From contig NZ_AP027266.1 of assembly GCF_036322625.1 (NCBI RefSeq), positions 3,413,001-3,477,000 on the forward strand: a stretch of DNA of 64,000 bases, read 5' to 3'. The notes beneath the pieces are model-generated. The model worked only from the letters and a program-made list of their open reading frames with translations. It made no database searches and was not told where the DNA came from. This DNA is from Roseicyclus marinus (lineage in GTDB: Bacteria > Pseudomonadota > Alphaproteobacteria > Rhodobacterales > Rhodobacteraceae). Below, piece after piece: positions 26,754-28,329 of this stretch (its first letter is position 1; each line of letters starts with the position of its first letter). The translations under genes were made by a program, and so were the position numbers.

Positions 26754-28329
26754 AACTCACCGTCTGGACATACGAAGGTCCGCCGCATGTCGGCGCGATG
26801 CGCGTCGCCACCGCGATGAAGGGTCTGCATTACGTGCTCCACGCCCCGCAGGGCGACACATATGCCGACCTTTTGTTCACCATGATCGAACGGCGCAACC
26901 ATCGCCCGCCGGTCAGCTACACCACCTTCGAAGGGCGCGATCTGGGCGAAGATACGGCGGGCCTGTTCAAGACGGCCTGCCAGGACGCCTATGACCGCTT
27001 CAAGCCGCAGGCGCTGATCGTGGGCGCATCCTGCACCGCCGAATTGATCCAGGACGATCCGGGCGGGCTGGCGGAAACCATGGCTCTTCCGGTGCCCGTC
27101 ATCGCCCTTGAACTGCCCAGCTACCAGCGCAAGGAAAACTTCGGCACGGACGAGACCTTCTACCAACTCGTCAAGGCGCTGGCCGGTCCCGTCGAAAAGA
27201 CGCCCCATGTCACCGCGAACCTTATCGGCCCCCTGGCCTTGGGTTTCCGCCATCGCGACGACATCGAAGAGGTCAAGGCGCTCCTCGAAGAGATGGGGAT
27301 CGGCATCAATGTCGTGGCCCCCTTCGACGCGACGCCCCATGACCTCACCCGGCTGGGCGCGGCCCACATCAACATCCTGATGTATCCCGAACATGCCGAA
27401 ACGGCGGCCCGCCACATGGAACGGGTGCTTGGCATTCCCTTCACGAAAACCGTGCCCATCGGGGTGGGCGCCACCCATGATTTTGTCGCCGAAGTGGCCC
27501 GGATCTGCGGTGTAGAGCCGAAAAAGGACCTGGGCCGCCTGCGCCAGCCCTGGTGGTCGAAATCGGTCGACTCGACCTATCTGACCGGCAAGCGCGTCTT
27601 CCTGTTCGGTGACGCGACCCATGTCCAGACCGCCGCCCGCATCGCGCGGGACGAGATGGGGTTCGAGGTGGTGGGCCTTGGCTGCTACAACCGTGAATTC
27701 GCGCGGCCGATCCGGGCTTTGGCCAAGGAATTCGGTCTCGAGGCGCTGATCACCGACGATTACCTCGAGGTCGAGAAAGCCATCGAGGATGCCGCCCCCG
27801 AGATGATCCTCGGCACCCAGATGGAGCGGCATATCGGCAAGCGCCTTGGCATTCCCTGCGCCGTGATTTCTGCCCCCGTCCATGTGCAGGATTTCCCGGC
27901 GCGCTATTCCCCCCAGATGGGCTGGGAAGGGGCAAATGTCATCTTCGACACCTGGATCCATCCGCTGGTCATGGGGCTGGAGGAACATCTTCTGTCGATG
28001 TTCCGCGAGGATTTCGAGTTTCACGACGAAGCCGGCGCCAGCCATCACGGTGGGCATGCGCCGCGCGCGTCGCAGGGGGGCCAGCCCCCGTCAGCGAAGC
28101 TGACTCCCCCCGGAGTATTTCGGAAGCAAAGACGGATGCGCCCGCGCCGGTGGAAACCGGCAGCGACGTCATGGTCTGGCTCGCCGATGCCGAGCGTGAG
28201 CTGAAAAAGATTCCGTTCTTCGTGCGCGGCAAGGCCAAGCGCAACACCGAGAAATTCGCCGCCGAACGGGGCGTGACCCAGATCAGCGTCGATACGCTCT
28301 ACGAGGCCAAGGCCCATTATGCGCGGTGA
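26750..28329 (+). CDS. bchB: BchB, light-independent protochlorophyllide reductase subunit B, with -1 frameshift at 28075-28081
   Basis: BchB is the partner of BchN. Residues 1-430 match the family: [20 protein letters not shown], the cluster ligand Asp36 (HAPQGD), [15 protein letters not shown]. The frame from ATG 26750 stops at 28204 (484 residues) with a non-homologous tail. The expected C-terminal domain ([20 protein letters not shown] ... [11 protein letters not shown]) is intact in the -1 frame up to TGA 28329. A -1 slip at G GGG GGC (28075-28081), or one missing G, restores a 526-residue protein of normal size. The linker also contains a palindromic element of an intergenic family. Overlaps bchH by 11 bp. 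Confidence 0.9.
28075..28133 (+). repeat. Dispersed GC-rich palindromic element inside bchB (copy A)
   Basis: The segment has a G6 run facing C5 (GGGGGCCAGCCCCC), then a perfect GTCAGC-GAA-GCTGAC hairpin (28090-28104), then CTCCCCCCGGAGTATTTCGG and a CAAAGA tail. The same skeleton (G-run/C-run hairpin, CTCCCCCCGGAGT-TTT-CGG, AAGATG) is found between genes at 58715-58771 and, more diverged, at 62921-62972. Here it lies in the BchB interdomain linker and encodes part of it. Confidence 0.7.

Follow-up and report, generated by a model that had tools for sequence, protein, structure and literature searches.

We propose that a palindromic repeat, from a family that appears to be spread through the Rhodobacteraceae (a name taken from the organisms of the related loci), forms an in-frame part of the linker that joins the core of BchB to its PCP_red domain in Roseicyclus marinus. 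The element was probably inherited at this site from the ancestor of this Roseicyclus subclade. One C would have been lost from the C run of its first hairpin, putting about 38 codons out of frame until a stop at position 28204 and leaving PCP_red behind in the -1 frame. The base may be missing from the assembly only, or a recent slippage mutation may have removed it in the cell; no dedicated recoding would be needed. We are confident, if short of certain, in this combination of an inherited in-frame element and one absent C without dedicated recoding.

The window, i.e., the whole stretch of 64,000 nucleotides that was analyzed, contains the bchN-bchB-bchH part of the photosynthesis gene cluster; the gene names come partly from Pfam and partly from what we take to be the usual nomenclature. 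The bchB ORF (26750..28204, + strand) starts with GTG and encodes 484 amino acids, comprising the BchB core and then the out-of-frame codons from the C run to the stop. An ORF of 59 amino acids in the -1 frame (28150..28329, + strand) encodes the C-terminal domain. Pfam recognizes Oxidored_nitro in the core ORF (E 5.8e-82) and PCP_red in the -1-frame ORF (E 2.7e-21), a pair that we assume to be the mark of BchB. Both domains are present, split over two frames, as an earlier note on this DNA had said, and the switch falls inside the palindromic repeat. That note had also calculated that a -1 shift gives 526 residues, which is correct and equals the length of the protein in the nearest genome, G002.

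The element occupies 28075..28142 (+ strand). Its first helix is formed by the G run of a G GGG GGC heptamer (28075..28081, + strand; codons GGG GGC in frame 0) and by a C run (28085..28089, + strand). These are followed by a perfect second hairpin, GTCAGC-GAA-GCTGAC (28090..28104, + strand), whose pairs covary in the family, and by a C6 run with a tail of the AG subtype (28106..28135, + strand). The layout of heptamer and perfect hairpin described earlier is real, although the spacing between them is 8 nucleotides and not 9. A covariance model, R1, was built from 27 other copies with the bchB copy excluded. It scores the bchB copy at 54.8 bits (E 4.7e-11), which bears out the earlier proposal that the coding linker has taken up a repeat. 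Folding of single sequences gave z values of -2.58 to -0.23 in five sequences.

The bchB linkers of relatives locate the missing base. A core search had a match in 21 of 61 genomes, this genome counted, and a first linker set comprised 21 loci, the present one included, in which core and PCP_red were both found, leaving out L022, which is cut by a contig end, and the loci of a distant homologue. A second, overlapping set comprised 80 loci of named public genomes. One frame is kept from the core through PCP_red in 79 of these 80 loci. The nearest relative is L031, from Roseicyclus marinus CCMM001, with 98% identity in the core. The element is also present in this locus, L032 and L033, and its second hairpin is of the kind seen here; G6 and the phase of the heptamer match as well, but the C run is C6, and all three loci are in frame. 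The junction reads (C/G)AGGGGGGCCAGCCCCCCGTCAGC in these three loci and CAGGGGGGCCAGCCCCCGTCAGC here, which leaves the G run unchanged and the C run one base short here. As the genome is sequenced, one C is thus absent from the C run of helix 1. The earlier note had suspected one miscalled G in the homopolymer and expected seven G residues in the case of a sequence error. This points to the wrong run: G6 is the same in L031-L033, and it is the next C run, at 28085..28089, that is short relative to them. The more general reading of a frame lost by mutation or by a homopolymer miscall is supported by C5 here and C6 in the three relatives.

The exception among the 80 loci is L040, a Roseicyclus metagenome assembly, which is out of frame in the same linker (L040:3336-3423) and is thus a second Roseicyclus bchB with a broken frame there. 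Locus L010 of the first linker set is apparently the same assembly. This second out-of-frame gene could reflect tolerance of PCP_red loss, or an error again. In total, the frame is broken in two linkers out of 81 and in none of the 81 core stretches of 1281 bases, a comparison that does not give a fair rate, as loci with a broken core may rank lower.

Inheritance of the element at bchB is indicated by its second hairpin, because four of 21 genomes have the hairpin-2 pattern, each with a single occurrence that lies at bchB. A search for GTCAGC/GCTGAC with the following C run, allowing up to one mismatch, found no other copy in the 21 genomes, which argues that the second hairpin of bchB was inherited and not recently converted.

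When R1 was applied to 81 linkers (the window and the 80 loci), 24 matched at E 0.01 or better, and the element is in frame in 22 of them. Weaker matches, with E from 0.018 to 0.37, occur in L062, L052 and L075. The resulting 27 element-bearing linkers (24 strong and three weak) bear on the idea that ribosomes undergo programmed -1 frameshifting at G GGG GGC, stimulated by the hairpin, and in this way produce full-length BchB. At bchB, an X XXY YYZ heptamer is in frame with a stem-loop downstream, at the 8-nucleotide distance given above, and the shifted product has the length of the G002 protein. However, GGGGGG followed by C or T stands in the phase of a -1 site in nine of the 27 linkers, namely the window and eight relatives, and all eight relatives are in frame. 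Sixteen linkers have it in another phase; L040 is among them, as is L093, for which the script picked up a G run lying upstream of the element. The remaining two lack it. A frame offset is not conserved among relatives with the signal: no shift is needed in L031-L034 and L043, where the heptamer stands in the same phase, whereas L040, the other out-of-frame gene, has it in a different phase. Moreover, the heptamer and hairpin are parts of a repeat with dozens of genomic copies, mostly outside genes. Because the phase is found with an intact frame in eight relatives, we regard the slippery heptamer as a by-product of the repeat. Programmed frameshifting is therefore very improbable, and the suggestion that slippage restores the frame is not supported.

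A real deletion might also leave BchB as two pieces, in which case the core would carry a changed tail and PCP_red would be translated on its own from GTG 28150 or ATG 28171. The -1-frame ORF starts at 28150 and overlaps the core ORF, and PCP_red is intact at the sequence level, but no ribosome-binding site is evident by eye and the single frame is kept in nearly all related loci (79 of 80). We consider two separate pieces quite unlikely.

Another reading is that the photosynthesis cluster is in decay and bchB is an early pseudogene. Both bchB as sequenced and L040 are broken, as decay would predict. Against this, the defect is a single-base difference, both parts of bchB are more than 91% identical to G002, and an audited stretch that includes the cluster has no other break with more than 90% identity on both sides. 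This audit set about 492 kb of the present genome against a single G002 contig of 432 kb and covered 265 genes (100,747 amino acids). It flagged 11 genes with parts in two frames, and bchB is the sole break in the 265 genes with more than 90% identity on both sides (96% and 92%). Nine of the 11 differ only at the N-terminal end and were judged to be artifacts, one after inspection and eight from the listing alone. The eleventh case, a calcium-binding-type repeat gene (G000 chromosome, i.e., this genome, 3278923-3281525), looks frame-broken relative to G002 and was accepted. A smaller first audit of 86 genes flagged three: bchB, a spurious antisense ORF (inspected) and an N-terminal extension (judged from the listing).

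The earlier note had reasoned that the reductase DPOR should be essential unless another reductase exists. As far as tested, this is supported. A homology search of the genome (3,552,491 bases) found one bchB and one distant homologue at 28% identity, and a search for LPOR (TIGR01289) gave 15 matches, the best with 54.1 bits as against a curated cut-off of 331.35. Given the single bchB and LPOR-like matches far under the cut-off, a dead bchB would be unexpected, yet possible. Overall, decay of the cluster is unlikely.

For the single absent C in an inherited element, the cause and the fate of the BchB protein are matters of inference, with two possible causes. Loss in the assembly has about an even chance of being right, the G6-CCAG-C6 hairpin being plausibly hard to sequence. 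Loss in the cell, by a recent slippage mutation, is a serious candidate to which we give somewhat less than an even chance. Since the larger audit left few accepted breaks, the assembly is not full of indels; with one further accepted interior break in 265 genes it is fairly clean, which weakens sequencing error and favors a real mutation, and both causes are still plausible.

The element belongs to a large family. Its architecture is GGGGG-loop-CCCCC, usually a covarying second hairpin, and then CCCCCGG(GA/AG/CA)TATTT and a tail. The pattern CCCCCGGNNTATTT has 28 copies in the whole genome and none in the reversed control. In the window alone, a 13-base piece has three matches at up to two mismatches, which is not beyond chance (shuffle mean 0.93; three reached in 7 of 100 shuffles). 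When 27 copies were aligned without the bchB copy, helix 1 (GGGGG/CCCCC) was invariant, and most copies had a second hairpin of free sequence and conserved pairing. In helix 2, 30 cells are changed on both sides, compared with a shuffled mean of 11.3, a level that none of 500 shuffles reached. Nor did any of the 500 equal the observed proportion of paired cells or the observed covariation score. The numbers of double-change pairs (47/500) and of further pair types (404/500) were not beyond shuffles.

R1 has 84 matches in this genome at E 0.01, 11 of them short, with 150 of 4880 first-look candidates scored. Besides the bchB copy, two copies lie in the window, at 58713..58776 and 62919..62977 (both + strand and intergenic by the ORF context test), which agrees with the earlier observation that the 60-bp stretch belongs to a repeat family found elsewhere in the window; a repeat finder had grouped them with the bchB copy as D4. 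Across 13 genomes of the genus, R1 has 23 to 80 matches each at E 1e-4 (150 candidates scored per genome). Of 149 genomes of the family, 109 contain a 14-base signature, the highest count in a single genome being 133. Isolated matches carry little weight, since the reversed control also has one or two in each of 23 of these 149 genomes. On the minus strand of the G000 chromosome (1942308-1942466), we observed an array of four short matches to the 5′ part of the element with 43-nucleotide spacing, adjoining a full copy at 1942228-1942294. Ten of the 28 pattern copies, each within a locus of about 3 kb, were compared with Rfam, and the only match at the gathering score was a tRNA. We found no description of the family in the titles and abstract beginnings of open-licence papers among the matches listed, and none of five Rhodobacteraceae names was found in PMC3733652.

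The position of the copies was classified with our own automatic ORF caller (ORFs of at least 70 amino acids, with a GC filter), the 11 short matches being set aside. Of the 73 remaining copies, 57 are intergenic, 12 are inside an ORF and four overlap one. The intergenic copies lie between convergent genes (29), same-strand genes (18), other-strand genes (9) and divergent genes (1). The element is mainly a 3′-end element, because a gene on its own strand precedes 47 of the 57 intergenic copies, in 25 cases by at most 19 nucleotides past its stop. On inspection of the 16 non-intergenic copies, we judged two to have a coding signal on both sides: bchB and an RlmL-like methyltransferase gene. The idea that bchB holds the only coding copy was thereby overturned. 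A scan for terminators and promoters at the bchB copy found nothing on the + strand and one weak minus-strand match at the tail end (28145-28132).

In bchB linkers, the copies are all on the coding strand. Apart from the window and L040, they share one reading phase of the tail, which encodes (D/S)-I-S in plain cases; these phases were partly set by hand where the script pattern was off by one or two. The linkers of L035-L038, L045 and L096 have an apparently decayed tail, as judged by eye. The second hairpin of 15 embedded copies has double-sided changes in 14 cells (mean of shuffles 5.0; 0/500), with double-change pairs at 229/500 and further pair types at 481/500. Since the sequences are related, this covariation is support, not proof. 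On a quick tree of the first 1281 bases of bchB, in which 27 of 78 inner branches are open, the presence of the element needs at least seven changes (24 strong matches) or nine (all 27), counts that are blind to gain versus loss. The element is present in 8 of 8 genes of the window's subclade and in 10 of 10 of the Roseobacter-Tateyamaria clade.

Minus-orientation copies also occur just upstream of bchB in L032, L033, L038, L039, L043 and L045-L048, and before bchB in L072, L075, L093 and L110, where their place was deduced from coordinates. Overall, 13 of 81 loci have an other-strand copy just before bchB at E 0.01. The junction was read in the window and the first 23 loci: either a copy lies between bchN and bchB, or the genes overlap without an element, as in the window and others. 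Such differences between congeners at a single junction are the best hint that the element is gained and lost.

The tails fall into subtypes. Of the 73 copies, 38 could be typed (bchB included) with an expression that allowed any head-tail pairing, and all 38 are coherent: 27 have GA with ACAG-like tails, six have CA with AAGATG and five have AG with GCAA-like tails. The other 35 were untypable. The three subtypes (GA/ACAG, AG/GCAA and CA/AAGATG) differ together at separated positions. In the window's subclade, 8 of 8 bchB genes are coherent, with four each of two subtypes, and the tree needs three switches. The tail subtype therefore switches as a block among close bchB relatives, which points to its replacement or conversion by other copies, or to movement of the region from one species to another.

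The second in-frame copy is in the RlmL-like methyltransferase gene (G000 chromosome 112833-113978, i.e., L206:12833-13978, - strand; 42.7 bits), whose assignment is above the Pfam cut-off and below the NCBIfam cut-off. In 10 of 12 congeners, the peptides at this site differ in kind (YLEKDEG, YLENEEGG, LESKDGG and others) and look like other versions of the element; two congeners have no match. In six more distant genomes, a different, short loop is found there. At the DNA level, the site was read in this genome and three congeners, and R1 was scored on this genome's copy. It is conceivable, although we hold the idea tentatively and think it rather doubtful, that the activity of the Rhodobacteraceae-wide family is high enough for its copies to be exchanged or converted in situ, both in the bchB linker and, probably, in the RlmL-like gene. 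The tail subtype would change as a block while frame and hairpins are kept; proteins would use a replaceable repeat as a linker, and the hairpin in the coding mRNA would itself be maintained.

These results remove a false recoding lead in a photosynthesis gene and offer instead a testable case of a repeat becoming protein, and such embedding goes beyond bchB. The family is common and easily searched, and its position 3′ of genes invites a test of transcription ends or mRNA decay. The bchB linkers provide some two dozen natural variants of a repeat that obeys the reading frame. For annotators, homopolymers in embedded hairpins are spots where genes are easily called broken.

The element resembles several known systems. 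With -1 frameshift cassettes, it shares the layout of an X XXY YYZ heptamer and a stem-loop, but here this layout belongs to the repeat and occurs where no shift is needed. Like intrinsic terminators and other 3′-end hairpins, the element lies mostly 3′ of a gene on its own strand and often between convergent genes; unlike terminators, it has no T run directly after a hairpin. REP and REPIN sequences are also small dispersed palindromes with dozens of copies, mostly outside genes. Their transposases, RAYTs, presumably fall under the Pfam family Y1_Tnp. In contrast to REP systems, a Y1_Tnp gene was not found in the present genome: PF01797 had no matches in G000, while 5 of 14 control genomes match. 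The nearest known kind is the Rickettsia palindromic elements (RPEs). RPEs have a length of about 150 bp and code for a conserved peptide, according to PMC10969869, whereas the present element, as cut, is about 53-77 bp. Its reading frame also differs between the two coding sites, and no conserved encoded peptide was found, the tail giving (D/S)-I-S in plain bchB cases and mostly Y-L-(E/G) in the methyltransferase. In both kinds, short palindromic repeats are in frame inside protein genes of an alphaproteobacterium, and in our case these are conserved genes: bchB, with its linker (22 of 24), and the RlmL-like gene.
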